From: Nonomuraea cavernae
GTDB taxonomy: Bacteria; Actinomycetota; Actinomycetes; Streptosporangiales; Streptosporangiaceae
Length of the DNA stretch: 64,000 bases
NCBI RefSeq assembly: GCF_014646355.1
Contig: NZ_BMNH01000022.1
Span: 62,001 to 126,000 of the forward strand
Direction of reading: 5' to 3'
This document shows, one piece after another, positions 36,566-64,000 of this stretch. The notes beneath the pieces were generated by a model. That model was not told the origin of the DNA, did not search any database, and saw only the letters and a list, made by a program, of their open reading frames with translations. Each line of letters begins with the position of its first letter. The stretch's first letter is position 1. Position numbers and translations under genes: made by a program.

Positions 36566-37456
36566 ATGGAGGGGTGGGGGGCGAGAAGTCCGTTCGAGGA
36601 AGAGCTGGAAGCCGCGCACGCGGCCGGAGACCTGGCCCGCTGTCTGTCCCTGTTACGCGAGGCCGACTTCGCGCTGCCGATCAGCGCCGAAGCGGCGGCC
36701 GGGCTGGAGCGGCCCGCGTGGGCGACCGTGACCGATGACGAGCGCACCTGGGTGGCGGCCTTCACCTCGGTCGAGGCGATGCGGGCTGTCACCGGCGTCA
36801 CCACGTACCGGGTCACCTCGCTCGCGGAGCTCGCCGCCGGCTGGCCGGATCCGCACTGGGGCCTGGCGGTCAACCCTGGGCTCCCGGTCGCCTTCCCGCT
36901 CGAATCGGGGACGGTCGCCAGGCTCGCGGTCCCGTCCATGGCGCAGGATCTCGTCCTCGACCCCGGATCGGGGCTGCCGGTCGTCCAGAAACTGCTGCGG
37001 CCGTCCGCCATCCACGCTCTCCTGGTGGACGGCGAGGCGCGGGTGTCCGGCTACTGCCACCACGCGCTGGACGTCGCGCACATCGCCACCCCCTCCGTGC
37101 TGGCCGAAGCCCTGGGTGAGCCCGACGTGGTGACGGACGACGGATCGGTCAACATCCTGCGCTGGCATGCCGCCGGGCCCGCCCTCTATCGCACGCCGTA
37201 CGGCGGGGTGGACGAGGACACCATGGCGGCGGTGGCCGGCTGGGTGGTGGAGGAGCCGCCCTTCATCGGCCTGGGGCTCGTGCCGAACGTCAACCAGGTG
37301 ATCCGCGAATACAAGATCGACGGAGTGGGGCTGACGCACGGCGCCGTGATCGTCGAGCTCACGCCGGAGGGGGTCGAGCGGCGGCGCGCCGTCTATGACG
37401 GCGATGCCGGACGATGGCTGCTGGTGCATGTCGTGCCTCGCGAGGATGTCGTATGA
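36566..37456 (+). CDS. SseB-like protein, first gene of the giant-protein locus
   Basis: A 296-residue cytoplasmic protein. Its middle part resembles the SseB N-terminal domain found in actinobacterial type VII secretion and polymorphic toxin loci (WATVTDDERTWVAAFTSVEA, then VTTYRVTSLAELAAGWPD, WGLAVNPGLPVAFPLESGTV). The remainder is not recognised. There are no membrane segments. It overlaps the next gene by four bases (ATGA). By neighbourhood it may be a chaperone or adaptor for secretion. Confidence 0.78.
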   Translation: MEGWGARSPFEEELEAAHAAGDLARCLSLLREADFALPISAEAAAGLERPAWATVTDDERTWVAAFTSVEAMRAVTGVTTYRVTSLAELAAGWPDPHWGLAVNPGLPVAFPLESGTVARLAVPSMAQDLVLDPGSGLPVVQKLLRPSAIHALLVDGEARVSGYCHHALDVAHIATPSVLAEALGEPDVVTDDGSVNILRWHAAGPALYRTPYGGVDEDTMAAVAGWVVEEPPFIGLGLVPNVNQVIREYKIDGVGLTHGAVIVELTPEGVERRRAVYDGDAGRWLLVHVVPREDVV

Positions 37457-37842
37457 CCTGGTACGGCTACCGGGCCCGCTGGCAGGGCGTGGAGTACGCG
37501 GCCAACCCTGACCCGCGTCCCGACGGTCTGTGGATGCGACTGCGCAGCCCGGTGCCCGCCGAGGGGTTCGAAGAGGTGGAACCAGGGTGTTTCGTACGGC
37601 CCGTCCGGGCCGACGCGTGCGAGGAGGCCGTCTTCGTCACTACGGTCTGCGTGTGGCGTGGTGAGCCGTTCCAGGTGGTGGGCGGGATCGACGACGAGTT
37701 GCTGCTCGAATACATCGGCGGACGGGTCACGGTCGCCAGGCGGCTGGAGCTGGAGCGGGTCGAGCGGGGTGTCCACCGTTGCCGGGTCTCGCTCGCCGAG
37801 GTCGTCGACCTACATGAGCACGTGGAATCTCTTCTGTGCTAG
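37453..37842 (+). CDS. small protein of the giant-protein locus, unknown function
   Basis: A 129-residue protein (starts MTWYGYRARWQGVEYAANP, ends VVDLHEHVESLLC) without signal peptide, membrane segment or recognised domain. It is predicted to be rich in beta strands and acidic. Its start overlaps the SseB-like gene stop, so the two are coupled. A role as immunity or accessory protein is possible from position only. Confidence 0.7.
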   Translation: MTWYGYRARWQGVEYAANPDPRPDGLWMRLRSPVPAEGFEEVEPGCFVRPVRADACEEAVFVTTVCVWRGEPFQVVGGIDDELLLEYIGGRVTVARRLELERVERGVHRCRVSLAEVVDLHEHVESLLC

Positions 37843-37908: not shown

Positions 37909-38337
37909 ATGTTACCTGTGCGTATCGGGGTGAACGTGGAGTTCGGGTCGGCTGAGGCCGCGGGCATGCAAGCCTACGCGGAGGAGCTGCGCACCACGTT
38001 CATGCGGATGCAGGACGAGGCGCTGGAGCTGCACGCGCAGGCGCGCGCCGTACGCGTGACGGAGACGTCGGCCGATGCCCTGGTCTCGGCCACCGTGGGC
38101 GCGCGCGGAGAGCTGATCCGGCTGGACCTCGACCCTCGCATCTACCGCCGCCCCGACTCCCGGCAACTGGCCGACACGATCACCGAGACCGTCGGCCGCG
38201 CCGCCGCCAAGGCGCGTGAACGCGTCGTGGAGATCTTCGCCCCCCTGATCCCGCCCGACCAGATGGAAGCCCATATCGAAGGCGACGTCGAGACCGCGAT
38301 GCGGCAGCTGGCAGACCGGATGACCGGGAAGGGATGA
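37909..38337 (+). CDS. YbaB/EbfC-family protein
   Basis: A 142-residue YbaB-like protein (MRMQDEALELHAQARAVRVTET-type helix, then the strand segment VSATVGARGELIRLDLDPRIY and the helix LADTITETVGRAAAKARE). YbaB-like proteins with this pattern are common just upstream of WXG100-like and polymorphic toxin genes in actinobacteria, where they are thought to be secretion partners rather than nucleoid proteins. The ATG has no strong ribosome site; in-frame GTG codons at 37918 and 37930 are alternatives. Confidence 0.82.
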   Translation: MLPVRIGVNVEFGSAEAAGMQAYAEELRTTFMRMQDEALELHAQARAVRVTETSADALVSATVGARGELIRLDLDPRIYRRPDSRQLADTITETVGRAAAKARERVVEIFAPLIPPDQMEAHIEGDVETAMRQLADRMTGKG

Positions 38338-38747: not shown

Positions 38748-41700
38748 ATGGCCGGCGGGCCCGTAGACGTCAACACCAGCACCTCTGGCGGCCTGCCGTC
38801 CGCTGGAGAAGGTGGGACGTCGTCCACCGACATCCGGCCCGTCTGGGAGACCGAGTCCTTCCCTGACTGGGTCAACTACGTCCTGATCCCCCTGCTGGCC
38901 TCCGGGCAGTCCTGGCCGAAGGCCAGTGAGAGCGGCCTGTGGGCGATGGCCAAGCCCCACGAGCGGACGATGAACGCCATGGTCACCGCCTTCGATCCGA
39001 CGGCGCAGTCGGTCAAGCTGGTCCTCTCCGGCTGGCAGGCGCCCGCGACACCCGGCTACCTCAGGCAGGTCACCCAGCTGTTCGGGGAGAACACGGGAGC
39101 CGGCGCGCTGGCGAAACAGTCCGACGGCTACTACCGGCAGATCGACGCCTTCGCCCGGGAGACTCAATACTCGAAGATCTCGATCAATGTGGCCTTCTAC
39201 ATCGCCCTCATCGCCGCGTTCATCGCGCTGCTGGCCGCCTTCTTCTCAGCGGGCTCCACCGCCTGGCTGGTGGGCCCGTACGCCGCCGCGGCTCGCAGGG
39301 CCGTCGCCCGCATCCTGGAACTGCTCGCCATCAACGCCGGACGAGGCTTCGTCGCGTCATCGGTGGGCCGGGTGACCGCCCTGGCCGGCCTCTCCCGGTT
39401 GGTCGCCTCGCCGATAGCCCGCGAACGGGTCGAAGAGGTCGGCGAAGAGGTCTACATCGACTACAAATCCCAGGAAGAGCAGCGGAAGATGGGCACTCGG
39501 GAGGGGACGGACTGGAGGAAAATGGCGGCCGCGGCCGTCGGCGCGCTCTTCGGCGCGGACGTCGGCATGAGGCTCGCCAACCGGACCTCCAGACTCGCCG
39601 ACTCGATCCCGGGCATCTCACAGCTGAACCGGATGGCCGGTGACTCGCCCGGCTTCAGCAACGCCCTTCTCCGCTTCCCCGGCCGGGCCATGAGCACCGG
39701 TCTCAACAACACGATCGCCTCACCGGTCGGCAGCCTGGCGGCCAACGCGCTGGTGTACGGGCAGGTGGCGATGCCGGGCACGGACGCGTTCGTCGGCGGG
39801 TTCATGGGCGGTGTCGGCCGTACCGGGACGATCAGCCCGTTCAACCCCGACGTGGCCCTGGCCCTGTCCAACCCGAGCGCGGCGCTCGCCCAGGCCACCG
39901 ACGCGGCGAACCGCACCGACGTGGCCAGGGCGGTCGACCAGGCCATGGCCAACCGTCCCGCCCCAGCCACCGGCCCCACCCCCTCCACGCCGTCGCCGGC
40001 GGGTGTGACGCCTGTGGGGGTGACCCCGGCCGGCCTTCCGGTCCCGTCCGCCTCGCCGACCCCCGCCCCGGCCGCCCCTCAGGCGCCCGGCTCGGTGCCC
40101 CGCCAGACCGGACCGCAACTCCAGCCCGGCCAGCAGCCGGACGCGGCGGCCACGCAGGCCGCTCCCACCGCGCGCACTCCGGCCCAGCCGGCGACGCCGA
40201 GTGTTCAGTCGGGCCCGCAGCCGGCACCCGACCCGGCCACGCAGCCGGACCCGGCCAAGCCCGCCCCCAGCGCCCGGCCGGCGCAGACCGCGCAACCGGA
40301 TCAGACCGCGCGTCAGGATCAGCAGGTCTGGCCGCCTCGCGGCACGGAGAACGCCCCGCTCGTCCAGCCCACGGAGAACCCTCGGCCCGTCCAGCTCACC
40401 GAGAACCTCCAGCCAGGCCAGGACGGACAGACCACAGCCAACCCCCACACCACGGAGAGCCCCCAGACCGCACCGAGCATCCCGCCGGACCAAGCCACCG
40501 CCCAGCCTTCCCCCTGGGCACCGCCCGATCCGGGTATGGCGCCGCAGGCCCCGGTCAACGCGGCGCCCGACCCGGCCGCCCAGCCCACGACCTCCGCCGG
40601 CAGTACCACGACGGCCGGCGGCACCACGGCGCCGACGGCGCCCAACACGCTGTCGGCCGTGATGGCCCAGGCAGCCGTCACGGAGGCGCAGCGCCTGGCC
40701 TTTCCCCATGCGATCCCGCTGCAGGACGGCGGCGTCTTCCTCACCGATGCCAGGGGACGGTCGGTCAGTCTGTCACCGGAGGCGCTGCGACGTACCGAGG
40801 AGCGGCTGACGTCGCGAGCCGCGAACGGCGCGACCGCGAAGCAGCTGGTGGCGGAGGCGGCGGCCGCCCTGGGCGCCGAGATCGCGATCGCGGGCGGCAG
40901 GCCGGCGACCGAGGGCGCCCTTGAGGGCCTCGATCAGCTCGCCGACGCCGATCCGGGCACCGCGCCCGACGCCGCCGACCACAGCCGCGCCTGGAACGAC
41001 GACGTGGAGCACGCGGAGCAGGTCGCCAGCCGGTTGTCTGCCAGGGCTCTCGGTCCCGACGCCGCCGTCCGCGCGGGCTTCTACGACATCGCGGCCCAGG
41101 AGATCATGGACCGGCTGGCGGCTCTCGGCACGCAGCAGGCCACCTCCCCCTCCCCCGCCCCCGAGACCGGCGGCCCGCGGACCGTGCCCGCGCAGCAGAT
41201 CGAGAACTCGCTGTTCCAGCCTCAGCGCCGGCGTCCCGCGCACCACGGCGCGGTGACGGACACGGAGATCCGGGCGGCGATCACGACGGATCTCGACCTG
41301 ACGGACTTCGGCGGCGAGGTGCTGAGCCTGACCTGGGCGGACCCGTCCTCCACCACGATGCTGGTCGAGACCCGCACGCACGGCACCCTGCACTACCGGA
41401 TCAGGATCGGCGGCGTCAGCGGCGACAACGTGGCCGAGTCGGAGATCCGCACGGGCTCGGTCACCGACCCGATCGTCATCAAGATCGCGCCGCGCGCGTC
41501 GAACGAGTCCCTGTACCGGGCGGTGGTGCACGAGATCTCACACGGCGGCCAGACGCGAGCGGCCGCGGCGACGCGGTCGGAGCAGGGCACGGTGCGGCGC
41601 TGGCTGTCGAGGACACGTCCCGTCGAGGGCGTCGACGAGTGCGTCGCGCCGCGGCTCAACGAATTCCGCTTCCTGACCAGGAAGTGGCGCGCGGCCGGCT

Positions 41701-44700
41701 CCATGGACGAGAAGCAGCGCTGGGCGCACGAGATCGACCAGTTGCTCGCCGACCTGCGTGACCGCGGCCAGTCGCCGCCCCTGCCGCCGTGGTCGAGCGG
41801 CAGCGCCGCCGCGCCGCCCCCTGTGACCACACCGCACGCCGACCTGGTCGCGTACGTCCGCCGAACCGTCGATTCGCTCACCGAGACCATCGCCGGATTG
41901 GAGGCACGGTACAACGCCAAGGAGGCGAGCCAGGCAGCGGCCAAGGCGGCGGCCAAGGTGGCGGCGGAACAGGCCCACACAGCCGATGGGCAGAAGGATC
42001 ATGGCGCGCCGGAACGCGCACGGAAGGCGAGAGTCAACGAGGCCAACGAACGCATCATGCTCGAACGGCACCGGCGCATCGCGGAGGCGTACGACACGGC
42101 AGGCGAGTACGCGGACTACGCGCGGAAGGCGTACGAGCTGTTGCTGGCCGAGCTCGAACGGGGCGCCTCGGCCGCCCAGGCCGCCCCGCTGGCAGTGCAG
42201 GCCAAGAGCTGGCTGGACGACTTCCAGCTGGCACTGACCGCGGCGCTGCCCTCGCTGGCGGCCCTGCCCAGCTTCGTCCCGGCGGGCCGGCTGCCGCATC
42301 TGAACAGGCTCACCGAGACGGTCAACGACCTGCTCCAGGAGCGCGGCATCGACGAGATCTTCACCCCCGCCGAGCTGGGCCGCAGGTTGTCCACGGAGTT
42401 CAGCCGGGTCCTGTCGGCCGACGGCGCGTTGATCCGGGTGGGGCGCGACGTGCCCGGCGAGATCCTGATCAAGCTGTCGGTCACCGACCTCGTGGAGGTG
42501 CTCGACCCCGGCAAGATCGCCTCCGAGATCATGCAAGGCGTGCTTCCGCAGGGCGGCCAGACCATCGGCGCCACGGCCAACGCCAACCGCGGCGCCAATG
42601 CGGGTCTCAGGCTGGACCCGTTGATCGCGGCGCTGCCCGACAGCCAGCTCAAGAAGTTCCTTGAGCATCTGGAAATGAGCGCCACGTACAACACAGGCTT
42701 CACGAGCTCGGTGACCGGCAACGCCACCGATTTCGCGCTGGACGGCGCGGTCGAGGACAACCGGGGCGAGTCGGTCCAGTATGACGGCAGGGCCCGATGG
42801 AGTGTCCAGGCCCGCACCTCGTCCAGGGACGGCTGGTCGCCCGAGGCCGTCGTAGACCACGGCTACCACGACGACGTCGGCAGCCTGCGAGCTTACGTGT
42901 CGCACGCGTACATGGACAGCCCGCCGATGAACCCGTTGCGGCTGCCCGCGGACCAGCGCCGGCAGGAGTTCCCCGAACACGTCGTCCTCGGCCTGACCGG
43001 GATGCTCAAGCTCGCCGAGGACACGATGAAGGCTCTGGGCGAGAAGAACTTCCCGCCGGGCAGCGTCGCCCGCCAGCAGGTCCTGACCGCCTTCGTCGAC
43101 GACTTCTACAGCCGCATGGAACACGCGGTGAACGATCCACAGGGTGTCCCCCGGATCATCCACGTGAACGGCCGCCCGTTCGCCCAGTTGTCGTTCCGGG
43201 CCGTGCCCCGGGTGGACACGGCAGAGCCCGTCGGCGCGCCCAGCCGCTCGCACTGGCAGGAGCGGCTGCGCGTCGGGGTCACCAGTGCCACGGGCAACCA
43301 GTCGTTCAGCCGATCCGGGGGCGTGGGCGGCTCGCTCGGCCTCAGGGTGGTGCCGGAGCTCGACGCCGTTCGCGGCGACGACGAGTACACGGTCGCGTCG
43401 GGGCCGAACTTCCGGGGCTCCGCCGGCGCCTCCGCCGCCGACGGGCTGAGCGTGAACGGCGTCACCTACCACCCGAGCGTCCAGCGGTACACCGGTTACA
43501 CCCAGGGTGTGGCGCTGGAGTTCGACTACGAGGTCACGGCTCACCTGATCGATGCCGACAAGCAGCTCGGCCCGATCAGAGGCGAAGGCGGCGGACTGTT
43601 CCGATTCGCGGAGTCGGACGCCTACTGGTACGGCCTGCCCGTCGCCCAGAAGGCCGTTGAGGTCCGCGAGGACGGCACGGTGGTGCATCGCGACGACCCT
43701 GATCCCAAGCCTCCGAAGGGCCGCAAGGGCGAGCTGCCGAGCTTCTACGGCAACGAACCCGGCAAGCTGCGCGGCGCGGGCCCCGCGCTCGTCCGGGGCA
43801 TCGACGACGCCGACCGGCTCCGGAAGGAGACCGAGGACAAGCTGCGCGCCATGGGCGTGCTGGCCCCGCTCGATCCCGAGACCGGAGAGCCGATCTACTC
43901 CTCCGATCTGCTGGAACGGTGGAGCCAGATGGTCAACGAGCGCGAGATCGCCGATCAGCTGGTCAAGCACCGCCTGCAGAGCGGCTACGACCAGGCCGCG
44001 CAGGACGGCATCATGATCGACCTGATAACCCTGCGCAGTGGGCGGGCGCCACGGCACCTCACGCTCCGTGTCACACTCAACCAGCACTTCACCGACGAGC
44101 ATGGCAGGCCGAGATCCAAGTTCGGGGGCATCACCACGGCATACGCCGACGTCAACCTGGACATCGGCTCCGACACCAACGTGTGGTCGCACGCACGCAG
44201 TGAGAACGTGTCAGGCGGCCTGGGTTACGGCGCCAACCATCAAGTGCCCAAGGGGCAGGAGGGAGTCAGCCCCAACGCCGGCGTGGGCGGCGGCCGTGAC
44301 TATTCGCGCACCCTCTCCCACACCATCGGTCTCACGATCAACGGGGTGCAGCTCAACGAGGCCACCGTCCCCCTGGCGATCTTCGACATCCCGCACACCG
44401 CCCGGGTCGAGTTGCTCCATGCCAACGGCGACGTGGAGCAGCTGGCAAGCGTGGACGGGAGTGCCCGGCTGCTGATCTCCAGTGACTCCCTTCCCGAGGA
44501 CGGCACGGAACGGCCCCTGCCTCCGCCGTCCGCGCCGACGCCGACCCCCGACGAGATAATGCGGTACGCGACGATCCAGCACATGGACGTGCCAAACCTC
44601 CTGGACGTGGCCCGGGAGCTGCTTCCGCGAGCAGCACGTCCGGACTCACCCGCCTTCCATCATCTCGCCGAGTTTCTCAACGTCCGCAGCCTCATCGCCC

Positions 44701-47700
44701 ACCCGGAGATGCTTCGCACCCCATATGGCACGGAGCTTGTGATCAGACCCCAGGGCGCCGCGCCGACCAAGGCGTCGATCTCCGTACAGGTCAGAGTGGG
44801 GAAGATGGTGTTCCTGGGTGCGAACAACAACGTCAAAGGCGACATCAACCTCACGCTGTACAGCATGGGCGTCACGGCCGGCCGATCGTCCGGCGGAAAG
44901 GTCGAAGGCTCGGCGGGTGCGAATCTCCAGGACGCCGACGGCTCCGGGGAAGGCGGCAAGGTCGGCGCCGGCCACTCCGGCGGGGAGTCACGATCGCAGT
45001 ACGACCTGTCCATCTACGGCATGGAACGGCTCGGGATCGGGCTGGGCAAGCAGTACGAGTTCCTGACCGATATCGAACTGGACCTCACCGGAGTGGAGGG
45101 GGACGGAACGCAGGTCACCAGGACGGTCGACGGGACCATGCTCTACACGGTGCCGGAGCGTGTCGCCCTGCGCATGTACGCCAAGGGGAGCCTCGATCTG
45201 CCTCTGTACCAGGTGGCGGACGTGGTCGAACGGTTCCTCGACCGCACCTTGCGGCTTGACCGTAGCGTGGCCGTACCACTCGTCAAGCGCTACCTGTCCG
45301 AGTTGTCACAGTCCACGGACTGGATCCCGCTGGCGGCCAGGCATACGCCGGCCGTGCTGATCGGCGGGCTGAAGACGGTCGTGAACGCCGGATCCACGCT
45401 GACGAAGGTGGACGACTTCCTGACCAGGGCCACCGAACTGATCGCTATCCCGCGTGAGGTGGAAATCCCTCGGTGGTTGATGAAATCGATAGGAATCACC
45501 CTCATCGAGGACATCCGCCTGGCACGCGAAGGCACGGACATCGAGCTGCTCAACGCCGTCCGCGACGCCATCGAGGCGGTCGCTCCGGACGTCCTCCAGG
45601 ACCGGGTGATAGCGGACAGCCTCCGCAAGATCTTTGGGGGGACGCGCTGGTGGGGGCCGATCGACAACATCTTCAGCGCGGACGGCCTGCCGCCGCTGCG
45701 CTACTACACCCCCTACGACGAGCTCGGCCGACGAGACAAGGTCGTGGTGACGGTCCGGGCCGAGTTCACCGGCAGGGCCGAGCTCACCGACAGGGCCGAG
45801 CTCGACACGTCGGCGGAACTGCTCGAGACCACGGACGAAGTCGGCAACATCATCCAGGCCTACACCTACAAGGAGCAGGGCAGGTCGGAGACTCGCTGGG
45901 CGTCCAACTCGGTGCACGCCGGCATCGACGTCTCCGGCGAGGGGCACGGCCACAGCCCCGGCGGCAATACCGATCGCAGCCTCTCCAGCAGCGGTTCTTT
46001 CAGCGAGCAGGACACCGGGCTCCAGGGCTACGCCGTTTTCAACGGCATGGACCTGGTCCAGCAACGGATGAAGCTCGTGATCGAGGTTGAGCGGACCCGT
46101 CAGCAGGCACGCGCGGTCGGGCTCACCCCGCTGGAGGAGCCTGCGGGGAAGGTCACCGTCGAGCTCACCGGCCACATGGACCGGTGGATCCAGACCGGGC
46201 TGACCAGGCCCGTGGGGACTCAGCCCGCGGAGCCGGGCAGGACCTTCGACCCCCGGCAGGTGCCTACGATCCACAGCTTCATGGCCAACTCGGTCAAGAC
46301 TGACCTGTACCAGAGGATCAGCGAAGCGCTCAGGAACCCGCGGCTGTTCGGTGAGGCGGTCGAGGTGCTCGACGTGGAGCTGCGCAACCAGCTGTCGGAG
46401 ATGGCGACCACCGCTCTGTTCGAGCGGATGACCGGCGAGCGCGGCCACCCGATCCGGCTTCCCGTGATCGGACTGCGCAATCGCGAGGTGGACGTCTGGG
46501 TCAAGGCGGTGCAGTCCAACCTCCAGGTCCTGGCCCGCGGCCTGCAAGGAGTGGAGATCAGGCAGGTCTATCGTTTCCAGCGGTTGACCGGCTCGTCGTC
46601 CAGCGGCGGTATGGCGTTCCCGGTCGGCGGGAGTTTTGGTCTCTCCGACCCCTCCGGCCTGAACGGCGGCGTCTCCGTCGGTGAGCAGTCCTCGGTCAGC
46701 AGGGCGAACGCCGGGGGCAACCGCAGGGAGATGAGCCGCTTCGAGAGGGACAACGCGGTCATCGTCCAGCTCACCACGGACTATGACCTGACCTTCACCA
46801 GGCAGGCGCTCACCCCTGAAGGGACGAAGTACGAGGCGATGCCCATCCACCTGCCCCGCGCCGCCACGGGCGAGGTGGTCGCCATCATGTCCGAAACCGA
46901 CTACGAGGCGCTGGTAGCGGCCATGGAGGCCGGAGCTCCCCTCGGTCCCGAATGGGAACTCATCCCGGAACCCGCGGTCTCCTGGGGGCCACAGACCAGC
47001 ACGGCGCCGCCGGAGCAGGCGGACCCGGCCAGGCCGTGGGGCTCGCTGATGGACGCCCGGATCAAGGCCAGCCGCTCGGGCACGGACATCAGCATCGACG
47101 TCACCGGACCGGACGGCCGCACGTACACCTACCACATCTCCCCCGACGGGTCGCTGCGCAGCGAGGACGCCAACCGCGCCTTCGCGGAGGCGTTCGCCAC
47201 CCTGTCGCCCGCGTTGGTGGAGCTCGCCGACCGAGCGGGCCTCGACCTGCGCGACCTCTTCGACAACCCCCGAACCCAGGCCACCTTCGCCGACCGGATC
47301 CGCACCGAACTGGCCGCCCGGGGCGTGGACCTGGCCACGCTGGAGGCGCCCACGGTCTGGCCGTCGCGGCCCGTCCTGGTCGGCGAGACCGCGAGCGGCG
47401 GCCGCTCCATGGGCTCGACGGGCGGGGTGGGCGCGCCGGAGGTCGCCGGCTCCGCGTTCATCGCCGACGGCAGAGCGCCGCACCTGCCGGACGCGACGCT
47501 CGACGAGCTCAAGGAGGCGACGGCACGCGATCTGAGGATCTCCGACTTCGGCGGGAAGCTGCTCGGTCTCTCCTGGTCTGGATCGACGCTGACGGTGGAG
47601 ACCCAGGCGTGGGGGACACTCACCTTCCAGGTCGAGGTCGGCGAGGTACCGCCGGGCCGGGTGGCCATGACGGACCCCAAGACGGGCCGCATGGTGGTGT

Positions 47701-49886
47701 CCGCCCGGACCGCGAACGACCAGCTCGCCCGCGCGGTGCTGCACGAGATCTCACACGCCGGGCAGGCCATGGCCGCCAGGGCGCAGCCGAGCGTGGTGCG
47801 CCGCCTGATCTCCCGCGCGAAGTCGATCGTGGGCCACGACCATTGCGTGTCGGCCCACTTCGACGAGTTCCGCCACCTGGCGCGCAGGTGGGCCGCCGCG
47901 AAGGCGGCCCACGACCTGGACCCCACCCCCGAGAGGGAGGACGAGGCACGCAAGTGGCGGCACGAGCTGCAGGCCCTGGACGCCCGGCTCCGCACTCTGG
48001 GTCACACACCTCCGTCGTTCCCGTGGACGACCGGCCGGTCGGCGACCCCCGGCTTCCACACCGGCGCCGTCGCCGCCCTGCCCACGACGGCGGCGGGTCT
48101 CGGCACGCTCGCGGACCTGTCCGGAGTCGGGGCCATCGCGCCCACCGGCTCCCCGAGGACCGCGACCACACCTGCCGGGCAGCCGAGCACGTTCACCGTC
48201 ACCTCGCCCGCCGGACAGCTCACCCTGGAGGTCTCCGAGGCCGACCTGCCCCCCGGCACGGTGGAGGTGCGGGCGTCGAGCCCGGGGGCGCTCTCCGTCG
48301 CCGTGTCCCCCTCCGACGGCGGGAGCGTCCGGATGCGGCTCGCCGAGCTGATCGCGCAGGCCGTCGCCGACCAGATGGGCATGGAAGCCGGGCATGCGCT
48401 GCGCCCCGGGCCGCTGAGCTCCGTCCCCGACCTGCGGCGCGGCGACGCCGCGACGCTCGTCCGCGTCAGGGCGCTGATCGAGGCCCGCGCCGCGGCCTCA
48501 CCCTTTGAGCGCGGCGCCATCGAGGACCGGCTCCGTGCCGAACTGAGAGACGCGGGGCTGACGCCCGGCACCGAGGGCGCGACGGCCAGGCAGGTGAGCG
48601 CCGCCCGCGCGGGCCTGCTGCCGGCCGCGCACCTGGACCTCATCAACGAGCTGTCCGGCCGGACCGTGCACCCCACCGCCACGGCCATCGTCGCCGCCAT
48701 CACCCGCACCGCCGCCCTCCTCGGGGCCACGACCAGCAGGTACGGTTCCACGCTGGTCGACGTCACGCTGCCCGATGGGACGTCGATACCGGTGGAGGTG
48801 CGGGCGGATTCCACCTCCACGGGCCAGTCGCTCGAGCTCACCACCGACCAGGGGGTGCACACGTTGACCGTGGACCTCGGCTGGCCTGTGCCGGCGCTCG
48901 AGCGCAGCGTGGCCGGCAGCATGGTGAGCGCGATCCTCACCGCGTCGGGCGTGCCCGAGGACCAGCCCGTGCCGGTCCCCAGCGCTCCGGGCGGCACCCT
49001 TACCAGGAGGGAGGTCTATCTGGCCATCGAGCTCCAGGAACTGCTCAACCAGGTGCGGACCGCGACCCCTCAGCAGCGTCCCGGCCGATTCGCCCTGCTC
49101 GTCCACATGGCAGAGCTCAGGGGGCTCGGCAAGCGTTCCCCCGACCGCGACGCCAATCGGGCCCTCCTGCCGTACCCCATCGGCGCGGAGCTCACCGAGA
49201 TGCTGGACCACAGCATCGAGGGCGAGTCCCCGCGCGCGTTCTGGGAGCGAATGCGCAAGATCGCCAACGGCACCGGCTGGTACCCCCCGGAGGAGTACGA
49301 GGAACGCCGCCCCGTCCCGGAGCAGTCGGACGACAACCAGGAGCGGGGGACCTGGGACCAGGAGGGCCGGGAGCGGGAGGATCGGGAGCGGGAGAGCCGG
49401 AAGTCCGCTGAACCCACCCCCACATCCGCCGCACCGCATGCCACCTACACCGCACCTCCCAACCCTGGTGCTGTTTACACCGCACCTCCCAACCCCAGTG
49501 CCGTGTACCCCGCACCTCCCGACCCGGGTACCGGGGACACCGAGACCACCCCTGCGTCCCCCAGCCCCACACCGACCACCCCTGCGTCCCCCAGCCCCAC
49601 ACCGACCAACCCTGCCCCCACGCCCAGCCAGCCCACGCCCAGCACCCCCGCACCCTCAAACCCGGCACCCACACCGACCCCAACCCCAACCCCAACACCC
49701 ACACCGACACCAAGCGGCCCCGATCCGACACCCACCCCATCCAGCCCCGAAACCACCGATCCGACACCCACACCTAGCAATTCGACACCTGCGCCTTCGA
49801 GCACACCGACATCACGGCCCACCCCCAGCTCCACCCCCACTCCGGAACAATCCGCGGACGAACCCGGGGTTGAGGTCCCGGCATGA
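38748..49886 (+). CDS. giant type VII-associated protein with duplicated HEISH metallopeptidase-like modules
   Basis: A 3712-residue protein starting at an ATG behind GGGGGG. Residues 28-200 form a helical WXG100-like N-terminal domain (FPDWVNYVLIPLLASGQSWP) with a hydrophobic helix at about 146-168, then a helical region, and a Pro-rich linker at about 405-630. Module A (about 836-1015) contains VVHEISHGGQ (His928, Glu929, His932) and CVAPRLNEFRFL (Glu972). A charged, probably coiled-coil region spans about 1035-1190. About 1300-2760 is a long region of Gly/Ser-rich strand-like repeats. Module B (about 2915-3095) repeats module A with VLHEISHAGQ (His2999-His3003) and CVSAHFDEFRHL (Glu3040). 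The last 155 residues are Pro/Thr/Ser repeats. Zinc proteolysis and type VII export are inferred. Confidence 0.85.
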   Translation: MAGGPVDVNTSTSGGLPSAGEGGTSSTDIRPVWETESFPDWVNYVLIPLLASGQSWPKASESGLWAMAKPHERTMNAMVTAFDPTAQSVKLVLSGWQAPATPGYLRQVTQLFGENTGAGALAKQSDGYYRQIDAFARETQYSKISINVAFYIALIAAFIALLAAFFSAGSTAWLVGPYAAAARRAVARILELLAINAGRGFVASSVGRVTALAGLSRLVASPIARERVEEVGEEVYIDYKSQEEQRKMGTREGTDWRKMAAAAVGALFGADVGMRLANRTSRLADSIPGISQLNRMAGDSPGFSNALLRFPGRAMSTGLNNTIASPVGSLAANALVYGQVAMPGTDAFVGGFMGGVGRTGTISPFNPDVALALSNPSAALAQATDAANRTDVARAVDQAMANRPAPATGPTPSTPSPAGVTPVGVTPAGLPVPSASPTPAPAAPQAPGSVPRQTGPQLQPGQQPDAAATQAAPTARTPAQPATPSVQSGPQPAPDPATQPDPAKPAPSARPAQTAQPDQTARQDQQVWPPRGTENAPLVQPTENPRPVQLTENLQPGQDGQTTANPHTTESPQTAPSIPPDQATAQPSPWAPPDPGMAPQAPVNAAPDPAAQPTTSAGSTTTAGGTTAPTAPNTLSAVMAQAAVTEAQRLAFPHAIPLQDGGVFLTDARGRSVSLSPEALRRTEERLTSRAANGATAKQLVAEAAAALGAEIAIAGGRPATEGALEGLDQLADADPGTAPDAADHSRAWNDDVEHAEQVASRLSARALGPDAAVRAGFYDIAAQEIMDRLAALGTQQATSPSPAPETGGPRTVPAQQIENSLFQPQRRRPAHHGAVTDTEIRAAITTDLDLTDFGGEVLSLTWADPSSTTMLVETRTHGTLHYRIRIGGVSGDNVAESEIRTGSVTDPIVIKIAPRASNESLYRAVVHEISHGGQTRAAAATRSEQGTVRRWLSRTRPVEGVDECVAPRLNEFRFLTRKWRAAGSMDEKQRWAHEIDQLLADLRDRGQSPPLPPWSSGSAAAPPPVTTPHADLVAYVRRTVDSLTETIAGLEARYNAKEASQAAAKAAAKVAAEQAHTADGQKDHGAPERARKARVNEANERIMLERHRRIAEAYDTAGEYADYARKAYELLLAELERGASAAQAAPLAVQAKSWLDDFQLALTAALPSLAALPSFVPAGRLPHLNRLTETVNDLLQERGIDEIFTPAELGRRLSTEFSRVLSADGALIRVGRDVPGEILIKLSVTDLVEVLDPGKIASEIMQGVLPQGGQTIGATANANRGANAGLRLDPLIAALPDSQLKKFLEHLEMSATYNTGFTSSVTGNATDFALDGAVEDNRGESVQYDGRARWSVQARTSSRDGWSPEAVVDHGYHDDVGSLRAYVSHAYMDSPPMNPLRLPADQRRQEFPEHVVLGLTGMLKLAEDTMKALGEKNFPPGSVARQQVLTAFVDDFYSRMEHAVNDPQGVPRIIHVNGRPFAQLSFRAVPRVDTAEPVGAPSRSHWQERLRVGVTSATGNQSFSRSGGVGGSLGLRVVPELDAVRGDDEYTVASGPNFRGSAGASAADGLSVNGVTYHPSVQRYTGYTQGVALEFDYEVTAHLIDADKQLGPIRGEGGGLFRFAESDAYWYGLPVAQKAVEVREDGTVVHRDDPDPKPPKGRKGELPSFYGNEPGKLRGAGPALVRGIDDADRLRKETEDKLRAMGVLAPLDPETGEPIYSSDLLERWSQMVNEREIADQLVKHRLQSGYDQAAQDGIMIDLITLRSGRAPRHLTLRVTLNQHFTDEHGRPRSKFGGITTAYADVNLDIGSDTNVWSHARSENVSGGLGYGANHQVPKGQEGVSPNAGVGGGRDYSRTLSHTIGLTINGVQLNEATVPLAIFDIPHTARVELLHANGDVEQLASVDGSARLLISSDSLPEDGTERPLPPPSAPTPTPDEIMRYATIQHMDVPNLLDVARELLPRAARPDSPAFHHLAEFLNVRSLIAHPEMLRTPYGTELVIRPQGAAPTKASISVQVRVGKMVFLGANNNVKGDINLTLYSMGVTAGRSSGGKVEGSAGANLQDADGSGEGGKVGAGHSGGESRSQYDLSIYGMERLGIGLGKQYEFLTDIELDLTGVEGDGTQVTRTVDGTMLYTVPERVALRMYAKGSLDLPLYQVADVVERFLDRTLRLDRSVAVPLVKRYLSELSQSTDWIPLAARHTPAVLIGGLKTVVNAGSTLTKVDDFLTRATELIAIPREVEIPRWLMKSIGITLIEDIRLAREGTDIELLNAVRDAIEAVAPDVLQDRVIADSLRKIFGGTRWWGPIDNIFSADGLPPLRYYTPYDELGRRDKVVVTVRAEFTGRAELTDRAELDTSAELLETTDEVGNIIQAYTYKEQGRSETRWASNSVHAGIDVSGEGHGHSPGGNTDRSLSSSGSFSEQDTGLQGYAVFNGMDLVQQRMKLVIEVERTRQQARAVGLTPLEEPAGKVTVELTGHMDRWIQTGLTRPVGTQPAEPGRTFDPRQVPTIHSFMANSVKTDLYQRISEALRNPRLFGEAVEVLDVELRNQLSEMATTALFERMTGERGHPIRLPVIGLRNREVDVWVKAVQSNLQVLARGLQGVEIRQVYRFQRLTGSSSSGGMAFPVGGSFGLSDPSGLNGGVSVGEQSSVSRANAGGNRREMSRFERDNAVIVQLTTDYDLTFTRQALTPEGTKYEAMPIHLPRAATGEVVAIMSETDYEALVAAMEAGAPLGPEWELIPEPAVSWGPQTSTAPPEQADPARPWGSLMDARIKASRSGTDISIDVTGPDGRTYTYHISPDGSLRSEDANRAFAEAFATLSPALVELADRAGLDLRDLFDNPRTQATFADRIRTELAARGVDLATLEAPTVWPSRPVLVGETASGGRSMGSTGGVGAPEVAGSAFIADGRAPHLPDATLDELKEATARDLRISDFGGKLLGLSWSGSTLTVETQAWGTLTFQVEVGEVPPGRVAMTDPKTGRMVVSARTANDQLARAVLHEISHAGQAMAARAQPSVVRRLISRAKSIVGHDHCVSAHFDEFRHLARRWAAAKAAHDLDPTPEREDEARKWRHELQALDARLRTLGHTPPSFPWTTGRSATPGFHTGAVAALPTTAAGLGTLADLSGVGAIAPTGSPRTATTPAGQPSTFTVTSPAGQLTLEVSEADLPPGTVEVRASSPGALSVAVSPSDGGSVRMRLAELIAQAVADQMGMEAGHALRPGPLSSVPDLRRGDAATLVRVRALIEARAAASPFERGAIEDRLRAELRDAGLTPGTEGATARQVSAARAGLLPAAHLDLINELSGRTVHPTATAIVAAITRTAALLGATTSRYGSTLVDVTLPDGTSIPVEVRADSTSTGQSLELTTDQGVHTLTVDLGWPVPALERSVAGSMVSAILTASGVPEDQPVPVPSAPGGTLTRREVYLAIELQELLNQVRTATPQQRPGRFALLVHMAELRGLGKRSPDRDANRALLPYPIGAELTEMLDHSIEGESPRAFWERMRKIANGTGWYPPEEYEERRPVPEQSDDNQERGTWDQEGREREDRERESRKSAEPTPTSAAPHATYTAPPNPGAVYTAPPNPSAVYPAPPDPGTGDTETTPASPSPTPTTPASPSPTPTNPAPTPSQPTPSTPAPSNPAPTPTPTPTPTPTPTPSGPDPTPTPSSPETTDPTPTPSNSTPAPSSTPTSRPTPSSTPTPEQSADEPGVEVPA

Positions 49887-49924
49887 TGGTCAGCGGAACC
49901 AGCGACGTAGGAAGGGAGCACGCG

Positions 49925-50449
49925 ATGCCATTCGCCATAGCACGCACGAGGGACGAGGCGCATCTGTACCTCGACCTGCACCCGTGCGCCTGCGGTTCGG
50001 TCGAGACGACCTGGGACACCGCGCTGGTGACCGCCGGCGGTGAGCTGACCTCACGCTATTCGGGCGCCTGCGATGACTGCGGCACGGAGCGGGAGTTCCT
50101 GTTCGGCCTGCCCGAGCGCGAGACGATGACCGGTGACTTTCCCAACTTCGGCGGCGGCGAGCCCTCCCAACTGCTCGACGCCGGCGAATGGCTCTGGGTG
50201 GCCGACCTGACGGCGGGCAACGTCCCGACCGACGACGAGGCCGCCGCCCGTCAGGCGCTGACGATCGCCACGGCGGCGGTCGAGGAGGTGGTCAAGTTCA
50301 TCCCGGCGGGCCAGGACAGGGTGCCCGACCATGCCTTCTGGTCGGCCCAGGGCCGCGACACGCGCGACGCCGAGCCGGGCAGGTTCTCCCTCGACCGGCT
50401 GCTCATCGTCCGCGACACCTACCGCGAGCTGGCGGCCGCCCATGCCTGA
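49925..50449 (+). CDS. small protein with CxC/CxxC zinc-ribbon-like motif
   Basis: A 174-residue protein beginning MPFAIARTRDEAHLYLDLHP. The pairs in HPCACG and GACDDCG, 25 residues apart, look like a structural zinc ribbon. The C-terminal half (DAGEWLWVADL, AVEEVVKFIPAGQD, AFWSAQGRDTRDAEPGRFSL) is shared with the next gene. GGAAGGGAG precedes the ATG; a start at 49883 overlapping the giant gene stop lacks a better site. Proteins of this kind accompany large actinobacterial toxin-like genes; the function is unknown and could be immunity or chaperone. Confidence 0.78.
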   Translation: MPFAIARTRDEAHLYLDLHPCACGSVETTWDTALVTAGGELTSRYSGACDDCGTEREFLFGLPERETMTGDFPNFGGGEPSQLLDAGEWLWVADLTAGNVPTDDEAAARQALTIATAAVEEVVKFIPAGQDRVPDHAFWSAQGRDTRDAEPGRFSLDRLLIVRDTYRELAAAHA

Positions 50450-50969
50450 GGCCAGGACGATCGCCGAGGCGTACGTGCACATCGGCCTCACCGTCCAGGG
50501 CGAAGAGCTGGGGCGCAACCCCGACTACAGCCGCTGGAGCACCCTCACGGAGGGCGGCGACTCCTGGACGCTGGTCTTCGACCACGCCGGCCACCACATC
50601 GTGCTCCGCGTCCCCTACCAGACGGAGTACGACGCCAGGCGCGACGGTCTCCACTTCGGCACCGGCACCTCGACCCTGGTCGATGCGGGCCAGTGGGTCC
50701 TGGTCTCCGCCGCCTACGCCCGGATGGCCGTGGAGGACGACATCCTGTCCTCCCCTGACGCCGCCGACGGCTGGGAGCTGGCCAGGGACGCCGCGGTGGA
50801 GGCGGTCAAGTTCATCCCCGAGGGCGACGAGGAGCCGCCACCGGGCGCGTTCTGGACCGCCCTCGGCACGCAGGCCCGCGCGCAGGAGCCCGAGCGCTTC
50901 ACTCTGCGGCGGCTGCGCGACGACATCGACTTCTACCAGGAGAGCCTCGACCGCCTGCGGCCCGGATAA
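50442..50969 (+). CDS. paralogue of the preceding protein, without the zinc ribbon
   Basis: A 175-residue protein (MPEARTIAEAYVHIGLTVQG). The C-terminal half aligns with the previous gene (DAGQWVLVSAAYA, AAVEAVKFIPEGDE, AFWTALGTQARAQEPERFTL), while the cysteine motif is lacking. It overlaps that gene by 8 bp, so the pair is cotranslated and may form a heteromer. Function not recognised. Confidence 0.78.
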   Translation: MPEARTIAEAYVHIGLTVQGEELGRNPDYSRWSTLTEGGDSWTLVFDHAGHHIVLRVPYQTEYDARRDGLHFGTGTSTLVDAGQWVLVSAAYARMAVEDDILSSPDAADGWELARDAAVEAVKFIPEGDEEPPPGAFWTALGTQARAQEPERFTLRRLRDDIDFYQESLDRLRPG

Positions 50970-61050: not shown

Positions 61051-64000
61051 CTACACGCCTTTCCGCCACTCCGCGCCGGAGGCCGGCCCGGCCCCGTCTC
61101 CCCGGCCCTCGCGGACCCGCGCGAGCAGTTCCGCGGCCTCGGCCCGCATCAGCGGGGAGGCCAGGCTGTCGATCCGCGGCAGCAGACGCTCGATGGTCTC
61201 CCCGGCCTGCGCGAGATCCCCCAGGCGCAGCAGGGCGCCGCCGACCGCCAGGCCGATCTTGCAGAGCACCAGGGCCAGCTCGGAGCGTTCGGCGTGGTCG
61301 AGCGCCAGCGCGAGCTGGGTCCGGGCCTGCCGGTGGTCGTCCGCCTCGATGGCCACCTGGGCCAGGCCGAGCCGCGCGAACGCGCCTCCGGTGAAGTCGC
61401 CCACCCGGTCGGCCGCCTCCGCGACCGTGAGGAAGGCGTCCCGGGCCTCCCCCGCGCGTCCCACCCTCAGGTAGACCTCGCCCAGCCAGAACAGGGTGTT
61501 GAGCCGCTTCCAGTCGCCGCGGCTCTTCTCCGCGACGCGCACGGCCTCCTCCAGGTACCGCAGCGCCTCGGCCACGCGGCCCTCGACGAGGTGGATCTGC
61601 CCGATGGAGCGCAGGGTGTGGGCCTCTCCCGAGTGGTCGTCCAGGAGTCTGAAGGTCTCGCGTATCCGCTCGTAGCGGCGCAGGGCGACGGCATGCTCGC
61701 CGCGCGTGCGCTCCAGGTGGGCGAGCATCCGCCAGACCTCGGCCAGCCCGTGCTCGTCCCCGATCTCGACGAAGATCCGCTCGGCCGGCTCCAGGGTCAG
61801 CACGGCCTCCTCCAGGGCTCCGGTGAGCACGCCCAGCTCCGCGGAGAGCGCCGGCACGATGGCCTGGGCCCGGCGGTCTCCGGACTCCTCCGCCGCCCGG
61901 CCCGCGATCGACAGCATCTCCCGGTACTCACTCGCGCAGCACCGGATGTCGTACAGCCAGCCTCCCATCAGGGCGATCCGCCAGCACTCGTCGAAGAGCC
62001 CGTGGGCCGACGTCTGCCGCAGGACGCCGAAGACGGTGGCGGCCTCGGCCTCCAGCCAGTCCACGGCGTGCTCCGCCGCGTGCCGTACGATCTCCTCCTC
62101 CATGGGGACGACCAGCTCCTCGGCGAGCCGGGCGTAGTAGTCGTGGCCCCGGTTGGCGCCCCGGGCCTCGGCGGCGAGCCGGAGCAGGTGCCTGGCGGCC
62201 GACGAGAGCACCGACAGCGCCGTGTCCGCGGTCTCCTCCTCGGCCATCCGTTCCCGGCAGTAGGTGCGGACCAGGTCGTGCATCCCGTACCTGATCTGCC
62301 CGGTGCCGTCGACGCCGGTCACCCGCAGCAGGTGGATGTCCGTCAGGCCCTCCAGCATCTCCTCCGTGTCGGCCGGACGCTCGCCGCTGACCGCGATGGC
62401 CAGCCACGCCCCGGCCTCGGGCACGTCGAGGAAGGCCAACCGCCGCAGCAGGCGGCGCTCCGCCTCGCCGAGCGCCTGGTAGCTCAGATCGAGACCGGCC
62501 CGTACGGCGAGCCCCGAGTAGGACAGCTCGTCCAGGCGGCGCTGCTCGTCGGCGAGCCGCCTGGCCAGCTCCCCGATGCGGCGGTGGGGCCGCGCGGCGA
62601 GCCGTGACCCGGCGATGCGCAGCGCGAGCGGCAGCCCGCCGCAGAGCCGCGCCACCTCGCGGGCCTCCCGGTCCTCGGCCGCGACGCGCTCGCTCCCGGC
62701 GATACGGCCCAGCAGCTCGACCGACTCCTCCCCGTCGAAGGGGAGCAGTTCGACGGTGGTCTGCGCGCCGAGACCGGCCAGGCGTCTGCGGCTGGTCACG
62801 AGGACGGCGCAGGCGCCCGCGCCGGGCAGCAGCGGCCGTACCTGGCTCTCGTCGGTCGCGTTGTCGAGCACCACGAGCACCCGCCGGTCGGCGAGCATCG
62901 TCCGGTAGAGCGCGGACCGCTCGTCGCGGCCCTGCGGGATCTCCCTCCCGTCGACGCCCAGCGCGCGCAGGAAGCCGGACAGCGCCTCGGCCGGCGCGGC
63001 CGGCCTGCTGTCGGCCCCCCGGAGGTCCACGAAGAGCTGGCCGTCGGGGTAGCTTTCGCGGATCCGGTGCGCGGCGTGCACGGCGAACACGGTCTTGCCG
63101 ACCCCCGGCGGGCCGGTCACCGCGCAGATCGGCGGCGCGTTCCCCTGCTCGCCGGCCAGGACGGCCAGTACCGGCAGGGCCTGAGCCAGTTCCCGATCCC
63201 GCCCGGTGAAGTCGAAGGTGTCCGCCGGGAGCTGGGCGGGCGCGCCACTGTGCGCCCGCGCGGGTCCGGCGGTCACTGACCCGGACAGGAACCCGTTCGG
63301 CGGGGCGAGGGCCGGATCGGCGCGCAGGATGGCCTGCTCCAGCTCGATCACCGCCAGGCTCGGGTCGAGCCCGTGCTCCTCGACCAGCCTGTGGCGCAGG
63401 TCGCGGGAGAGGTCGAGGGCCTCGGTGCGGCGGCCATCGCGGTAGAGCGCGAGCATGAGTTGCGCGTGCAGCCGCTCCCGCAGCGGGTGCTCCGTCACCA
63501 GCCGCCGCAGCTCGCCGATCGCGTGGTGGTGCCGTCCGAGCGCGAGCTCGGCCTCGATCAGCCTCTCCACGCAGCCGAGCCGGGTCTCCTCCAGATGGGC
63601 GCGGACCGCCTCGACGTAGGCGCCGGACGCGTCGCTGAGCGCGGGGCCGCTCCAGAGGGCGAGGCCCCGGCGCAGCGACCGGACCACCTGCTCGGGCCGC
63701 TGCCCGGCCCCGGCCTGCCGGGCGCACTCCTCGAACAGGGCGAGATCCAGGTTCGCGGCGTCGGCCCGTAACGTGTAGCCGCCACGGGACGAGACCACCT
63801 CGTCGATGCCAAGGACACGCAGCTCCCGCCGGATGACGTGGATCCCCGAGTAGATCTGGGCGCGGGCCGACGTCGGGGGCGCGCCACCCCACAGCGCGTC
63901 GATCACCGCCTCCATGGTGACGACCCGGCCCGCGTTGAGCAGCAGGAAACCGAGCAGACCGCGCCGTTGGGACCGGCCGAGGGCGCTGACCGCGCCACCG
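61051..64000 (-). CDS. AfsR/SARP-type regulator (5' end beyond window)
   Basis: More than 980 residues are visible. The first visible residues (LGRSQRRGLLGFLLLNAGRV) belong to an OmpR-type DNA-binding domain, followed by the bacterial transcriptional activator domain (YVEAVRAHLEETRLGCVERL, LRERLHAQLMLALYRDGRR), an NB-ARC ATPase (Walker A VTGPPGVGKTVFAVHAAH, Walker B RVLVVLDNATD, GLPLALRIAGSRLA), and C-terminal TPR repeats from about residue 650 of the visible part. It is a likely activator of a biosynthetic or export function in the adjacent genes or beyond the right edge. Confidence 0.95.
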   Translation of the reverse strand, partial: GGAVSALGRSQRRGLLGFLLLNAGRVVTMEAVIDALWGGAPPTSARAQIYSGIHVIRRELRVLGIDEVVSSRGGYTLRADAANLDLALFEECARQAGAGQRPEQVVRSLRRGLALWSGPALSDASGAYVEAVRAHLEETRLGCVERLIEAELALGRHHHAIGELRRLVTEHPLRERLHAQLMLALYRDGRRTEALDLSRDLRHRLVEEHGLDPSLAVIELEQAILRADPALAPPNGFLSGSVTAGPARAHSGAPAQLPADTFDFTGRDRELAQALPVLAVLAGEQGNAPPICAVTGPPGVGKTVFAVHAAHRIRESYPDGQLFVDLRGADSRPAAPAEALSGFLRALGVDGREIPQGRDERSALYRTMLADRRVLVVLDNATDESQVRPLLPGAGACAVLVTSRRRLAGLGAQTTVELLPFDGEESVELLGRIAGSERVAAEDREAREVARLCGGLPLALRIAGSRLAARPHRRIGELARRLADEQRRLDELSYSGLAVRAGLDLSYQALGEAERRLLRRLAFLDVPEAGAWLAIAVSGERPADTEEMLEGLTDIHLLRVTGVDGTGQIRYGMHDLVRTYCRERMAEEETADTALSVLSSAARHLLRLAAEARGANRGHDYYARLAEELVVPMEEEIVRHAAEHAVDWLEAEAATVFGVLRQTSAHGLFDECWRIALMGGWLYDIRCCASEYREMLSIAGRAAEESGDRRAQAIVPALSAELGVLTGALEEAVLTLEPAERIFVEIGDEHGLAEVWRMLAHLERTRGEHAVALRRYERIRETFRLLDDHSGEAHTLRSIGQIHLVEGRVAEALRYLEEAVRVAEKSRGDWKRLNTLFWLGEVYLRVGRAGEARDAFLTVAEAADRVGDFTGGAFARLGLAQVAIEADDHRQARTQLALALDHAERSELALVLCKIGLAVGGALLRLGDLAQAGETIERLLPRIDSLASPLMRAEAAELLARVREGRGDGAGPASGAEWRKGV

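Follow-up and report, generated by a model that had tools for sequence, protein, structure and literature searches.

The window analyzed here, 64,000 nucleotides of Nonomuraea cavernae (contig NZ_BMNH01000022.1, forward-strand positions 62,001 to 126,000), encodes a giant protein of 3,712 amino acids (aa) that carries two homologous copies of a metalloenzyme-like module, A and B, at the front and rear of a long strand-rich region. The reading we favor, with confidence that falls a little short of even, is that the giant is an exported protein linked to type VII secretion, that both modules are metallohydrolases with a zincin fold, and that the rear module is the main enzyme. Homology, conservation, the operon, the predicted fold and the joint loss of a cysteine with the active-site motif are shown here; export, metal binding, hydrolysis and the division of labor between the copies are inferred. 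The gene itself appears real, given its ATG start, a frame unbroken by any internal stop and a strong codon-position GC bias (GC at third positions, GC3, 0.90). To our knowledge, few functions have been assigned among giant actinobacterial proteins of such size.

Comparison of the two modules by BLASTP gave 72 identical positions of 186 (39%) and 58% positive (115 bits, E 1e-37), and profile-profile comparison joined them with a probability of 100% and E 3e-60. An earlier note on this DNA had described two copies of a HEISH metallopeptidase-like module in one protein, and its alignment was accurate: every shared motif it listed was found (DFGG, LSW/LTW, GTL, HEISH-x-GQ, CV-x5-EFR and PPxPW), the spacing it put at 2070 residues is 2,071 from HEISH to HEISH, and the His, Glu, His and downstream Glu that it reported are present in both copies (928/929/932/972 in module A, 2999/3000/3003/3040 in module B). 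Each copy also has a D-x-C motif. As the two-module open reading frame (ORF) recurs in related genomes, the pairing in the window is not a product of chance. The note had called such a pair unusual, which holds against known systems but not within the giant-protein family, where two modules are the norm.

AlphaFold2 (AF2), run on residues 828-1020 with a 52-sequence alignment, produced a confident model of module A, with a predicted local distance difference test (pLDDT) score of 89.4 and a predicted template modeling (pTM) score of 0.84. In the model, five strands lead into the HEISH helix (model residues 92-114, where pLDDT exceeds 90), a second helix (139-155) begins just past C965 and bears E972, and a final long helix closes the domain. 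The HEISH residues are not predicted to lie apart; H928, E929 and H932 share one helix. Foldseek placed the alpha-ketoglutarate HExxH domain of ChlB (8s5f) first (probability 0.98, E 0.055), and VIA aligned module A with the same structure at Z 8.7 over 157 residues with 12% identity, followed by SjiH (Z 7.6) and, at Z of about 5 to 5.8, by M3 peptidases, Dcp, aminopeptidase N, lethal factor, ACE2, IrrE and selecase. Since VIA Z values below 8 are common for unmatched folds, a zincin-like fold is likely for the module rather than proven. By sequence, the module matches no named family in the libraries searched, as Pfam, NCBIfam and PDB sequences gave nothing above cut-off. eCIS_core (PF13699), which we take to be the Pfam model of the PVC-metallopeptidase, was not matched anywhere in the window at E values as high as 10, nor in Pfam scans, and weak similarity to BepA is limited to the region around HEISH.

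Among 136 module hits, H928 is His in 128 of 131 aligned and E929 is Glu in 127 of 131, with Cys kept in 128 of 135. Position 932 is Asp in 75, His in 51 and Glu in 3 of the 131, and a site that varies almost solely among these three letters (129/131) behaves like a ligand. A set of 150 hits was also compiled that includes eroded copies, the motif being counted as kept with either Glu or Asp at E929; 133 of these hits retain H, E/D and H/D/E in full. Intact modules keep the Cys in 131 of 132 cases and Glu972 in 130 of 132, whereas the 17 modules that lack HExx[H/D/E] keep the Cys only once and Glu972 14 times. Because Cys is lost along with HExx[H/D/E] while Glu stays, it is Cys, not Glu, that tracks the active site, and these letters point to Cys as the residue that goes with the HExxH motif and as a candidate metal ligand. 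The gluzincin-like zinc site proposed in the earlier note is therefore upheld in part: the AF2 model and its structural neighbors agree with a zincin-like HExxH fold, but the downstream Glu, conserved even where the motif is lost, is not supported as evidence for a metal site.

In most eroded copies, the beta and HExxH half is missing entirely and the helical hairpin at the C-terminus survives, generally with a Tyr where the Cys would be; others are point-mutated. By our reading, without a formal count, the eroded copies represent an estimated six to seven lineages. Giants without any intact module occur at L189-L191 and L196-L199 (loci are cited by L number). Lineages without the catalytic half retain the remainder of the protein and the operon, so catalysis is not essential everywhere, and to judge from these residues the enzyme site is lost in some lineages although the two-copy design persists.

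Module A matches two places in the window's own genome and has matches in 36 of 99 relatives, nearly all of which carry it twice in a single ORF of 3.0-3.8 k codons, the two sites lying about 6.3 kb from each other; giant orthologues of 3.0-3.9 k aa span 10 genera. An order-level sample contained 55 positive genomes of 299, all from 10 genera of the window's family, Streptosporangiaceae, and a phylum-level sample contained only 2 of 396. These samples are draws rather than a census, several loci, L070, L142 and L161 among them, are cut off by the end of a contig, and the initial search step was loose, so that absence outside Streptosporangiaceae, and with it the confinement of the giant family to Streptosporangiaceae, is provisional. 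A scan of public genome contigs with the single sequence of module A found no relatives; an alignment of the rear module did find them, in Nonomuraea, Microtetraspora, Streptosporangium and [Actinomadura] parvosata, and viral contigs contained none.

Within this family, it is exceptional for both modules to read HEISH. Where a locus has exactly two intact modules, the front one most often reads HExxD and the rear one HExxH, about 2,100 residues apart (third letters D/H, 30 loci), followed by D/D (12), H/H (4, the window among them), H/E (2) and H/D (1). Single modules are found at L063, L154 and L160, which lack A, and at L148, which lacks B; module A is cleanly absent in genus g5. A maximum-likelihood tree rejected a single clade of front modules (approximately unbiased test, p-AU 8.7e-6) and placed A and B as sisters both in the window clade (99/98) and in L146/L147 (97/89). 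With the front modules not forming one clade and A and B being sisters, the pair was re-made or homogenized at least twice; gene conversion would fit, and so would a loss with a later duplication. In the N. dietziae record (L045:6726-17583), the giant gene falls into two frames that overlap, one of 2,568 and one of 1,124 codons, and its module A reads RQITD, which may reflect either a pseudogene or a sequencing frameshift.

The case for export begins at the N-terminus, where the giant has a WXG100_2 domain (PF25547, 39.1 bits against a cut-off of 27) as well as a hydrophobic stretch. Long Pro-rich, likely flexible stretches adjoin the modules, module A sitting between a Pro-rich linker and the beta-hairpin array and module B after the array. 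Members of the family share a recurrent gene order, namely SseB, 142-aa ORF, YbaB, 111-aa WXG100-like ORF, giant, d1, d2; the 111-aa protein has no family match in Pfam or NCBIfam. From this domain content, the giant is probably exported, and a link to type VII secretion is the best reading of its WXG100_2 N-terminus together with the WXG100-like and YbaB partner genes. Type VII machinery exists in the genome, as contig C47, away from the giant operon, encodes EccB (E 3e-85) and a 1,341-aa multi-FtsK protein of EccC size.

The downstream genes d1 and d2 belong to two old paralogue groups. d1 begins within the giant's last codons and d2 within the end of d1 (window 49883-50969), a tight packing that suggests coupled translation. 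At loci with eroded or truncated modules, d1 is retained (L189-L191) or both genes are (L196-L198), and both also remain in L148, which lacks module B; it is thus likelier that d1 and d2 act as partners of the whole giant, such as chaperones, than that they inhibit the modules. A d1 homologue also occurs in another family of the same class (L167:9354-12672), divergent from a 927-aa HELGE-module protein and about 2 kb from a TraG/type IV secretion system coupling protein, so that module and d1 are found together outside a giant. In a sister family (L060, L064, L066-L068), the giants are longer (3.9-5.5 k codons read, some running off the end), the modules are mostly HExxD, and the d1-type gene is reversed and lies upstream of SseB instead of downstream. 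Of L065 and L068, one locus has two overlapping giant frames that together hold five HEISD/HEVSD modules, and the other has two near-identical modules about 880 residues apart.

In the mechanism we propose, the giant would be exported in association with type VII secretion, and each module would hold a metal through H928 and H932 (or Asp or Glu at 932); Cys965 would probably be a further residue of the active site, and E929 would act as general base. The likeliest chemistry would be the hydrolysis, outside the cytoplasm, of a peptide bond or one like it. The rear HExxH copy would act as the main enzyme, with the front HExxD copy specialized or weaker. In the window lineage, the front copy is a sister of the rear copy, which gives HEISH twice.

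Several observations weigh against this mechanism. The VIA score of 8.7 barely exceeds the range usual for unmatched folds, and the top single structural match is an oxygenase rather than a peptidase. No sequence family assigns the module to the peptidases; in Pfam it comes closest to the putative metallopeptidase DUF6782 (PF20573), which scores below cut-off (17.1 bits versus 27, over about 36 positions) and is matched by 9 of 33 relatives, with a best E of 4e-5. The closest relative of module A (L070, 77% identical) has HDISH, and 9 of 81 loci are without any module having all site residues; two of these nine, L070 and L158, are near misses by one letter or two, and L070 ends at a contig edge. 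Export of the giant, moreover, is read from its domain content.

One alternative, to which we give a small but real chance, is that the modules cut the giant itself after export, for example in the Pro-rich linker or between repeats, and so release its parts; the earlier note had suggested self-processing or cleavage of bound targets. The modules do adjoin Pro-rich stretches that are likely flexible, and N-terminal HExxHxxQ metallopeptidase domains, sometimes with a second C-terminal copy, have been proposed as releasing peptidases (PMC3482391). However, no conserved cleavage site was found, though none was searched for, the remaining protein is kept in genus g5 without module A and in L189-L191 without the catalytic half of module B, and there is no variable C-terminal toxin needing release, the tails after module B being short in several genera.

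It is unlikely, in our judgment, that the modules are the toxic enzyme of an antibacterial effector with d1 and d2, directly downstream, as immunity proteins. Such an arrangement would suit the many relatives in which module B is C-terminal and d1 and d2 follow directly, the absence of both module A and d2 from genus g5, and the stand-alone module protein adjoined by a d1 homologue at L167. Yet d1 and d2 persist beside the eroded modules and the missing module B described above, and neither module B nor its tails in relatives form a variable C-terminus of the polymorphic-toxin type, the protein being inherited whole. One-to-one pairing of d1 and d2 as immunity proteins for B and A was also considered and rejected, as the joint absence of A and d2 amounts to one lineage and the d genes persist without intact modules.

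Distinctly unlikely, too, is the view that the fold is kept mainly as a structural or partner-binding element whose HExxH-like site is metal-stabilized or vestigial. Degenerate copies retain the C-terminal helical hairpin and PPxPPW without the beta/HExxH half, and the variants HDISH, HDLSH, REISD and HELSR occur among modules, all of which such a role would accommodate. Against it stands the retention of the H, E/D and H/D/E letters in most hits, and of the Cys along with them, across 10 genera; neutral decay would not preserve a ligand set with only His, Asp or Glu in third place.

The strand-rich middle, which separates the two modules, consists of repeats, about six in number, that have diverged from one another and are each roughly 230-295 aa long (profile self-comparison probabilities up to 95%). 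AF2 of residues 1490-2170, with 27 sequences, predicted very long beta-hairpins (pLDDT 75, tips below 50). Foldseek listed pore-form perforin (7pag) first, at E 9e-6 and probability 1.00 but with a template modeling (TM) score of about 0.12, and perforin-2, PlyB and complement pore chains were near; VIA gave MACPF proteins a Z of about 6, and unrelated outer-membrane barrels rank as high. On these models, the middle would be an array of long beta-hairpins, loosely MACPF-like. It resembles perforin, perforin-2 and C9 in the length of its hairpins and differs from them in its low TM score, in a Z no better than that of outer-membrane barrels and in lacking consistent hydrophobic alternation: a membrane-spanning pattern in the long predicted strands was rejected, with alternation at p <0.05 in only 2 of 11. 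A single-chain secreted machine of a new kind, in which the roughly six fused hairpin units form a channel-like or tube-like structure by themselves and a metallohydrolase module of a new HExx(H/D)-Cys type guards each end, seems to us quite improbable.

Outside the array, degenerate extra copies of the module before A and after B were suspected but not supported (profile comparison of module A with pre1, 0.1%, and with post2, 0.2%). Two segments after module B, post1 and post2 (window 48198-49187, residues 3150-3480), are alike at a profile probability of 64% and are present in some relatives only. In one genus of the same family, relatives of the beta array lie in frames of 21,284 and 16,792 codons (G695:C2:250039-252069 and G659:C6:97585-98325), which are very large among bacterial ORFs.

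Least probable is an Fe(II)/alpha-ketoglutarate-type HExxH oxygenase acting on its own chain or on a substrate: the nearest solved fold to module A is indeed that of ChlB, and similar HEXXH proteins were initially mistaken for metallopeptidases (PMC12636437), but ChlB is an enzyme of ribosomally synthesized and post-translationally modified peptides that shares 12% identity and no sequence family with the module, the oxygenase family is absent from the module's NCBIfam and Pfam matches, Cys and HExxD variants are not described for it, and alpha-ketoglutarate would be lacking outside the cell.

By analogy, the closest precedent for the paired modules of the giant is the metallopeptidase domain of PVC toxins, an HExxHxxQ-E domain on the N-terminal side with a second, C-terminal copy in some secreted multidomain proteins (PMC3482391). 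The likeness lies in HExxHxxQ, a Glu in a later helix and copies toward both ends; the giant differs in having no PF13699 match, in its HExxD and HExxE variants, in a conserved Cys that tracks the motif, in a type VII rather than a contractile-injection context and in the lack of a variable toxin domain. Gluzincins (M3, M1, M48/BepA, IrrE, selecase) share an HExxH helix after a small beta-sheet and a later helix with a conserved Glu, but identity to them is below 16%, the module's downstream Glu is not ligand-like in its evolution, and position 932 is often Asp. Peptide deformylase, an HExxH enzyme in which Cys is the third metal ligand (PMC7683392), offers a parallel for an H/H/C site only, as no fold or sequence match with the module was seen. 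A literature search on HExxD metallopeptidases and the 'lonely Cys domain' found no papers in the library searched. CpnT-like, type VII-linked giants with WXG100_2 share the PF25547 N-terminus and the WXG100-like and YbaB neighbors; here, the core is instead about six beta-hairpin repeats with paired HExxH modules and not a recombining C-terminal toxin.

Table 1. Features of the giant gene and its operon, in window coordinates; starts of the genes upstream of the giant are approximate.
Feature	Position	Strand	Basis
SseB-domain protein, first gene of the operon	36566..37456	+	PF07179 E 4.5e-11; conserved order
142-aa protein, start uncertain	37414..37842	+	conserved order
YbaB/EbfC-family protein	37909..38337	+	PF02575 E 2e-14; conserved order
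Small WXG100-like protein, 111 aa	38347..38682	+	size, place, PWGxG turn; conserved order
Giant ORF, containing both modules	38748..49886	+	ATG start, open frame, GC3, orthologues
WXG100_2 (PF25547), residues 46-169 of the giant	38883..39254	+	Pfam E 9e-10
Module A, residues 836-1015	41253..41792	+	homology to module B, AF2 model
HEISH of module A, residues 928-932	41529..41543	+	motif, family conservation
Cys965 of module A, co-lost with HExx[H/D/E] in relatives	41640..41642	+	module alignment
Glu972 of module A, proposed third ligand, survives in degenerate modules	41661..41663	+	module alignment
Strand-rich middle, residues ~1270-2720	42555..46907	+	profile self-comparison; AF2 of 1490-2170
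Module B, residues 2915-3095	47490..48032	+	homology to module A, motifs
HEISH of module B, residues 2999-3003	47742..47756	+	motif
Cys3033 of module B	47844..47846	+	motif
d1, 188 aa, CxCG...CxxCG cysteines	49883..50449	+	orthologue group d1; conserved downstream place
d2, 175 aa, d1 paralogue without cysteines	50442..50969	+	orthologue group d2; conserved downstream place

These comparisons define a giant-protein operon, as yet unnamed, that is family-wide in Streptosporangiaceae and includes a metalloenzyme-like domain. The pattern of co-loss yields a sharp prediction, that Cys rather than Glu accompanies the HExxH site. That the two-copy layout has been re-made repeatedly suggests that it is important to have one module on either side of the beta array. 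Natural variants with HExxH, HExxD or HExxE, together with truncated copies, make the function of the giant testable.
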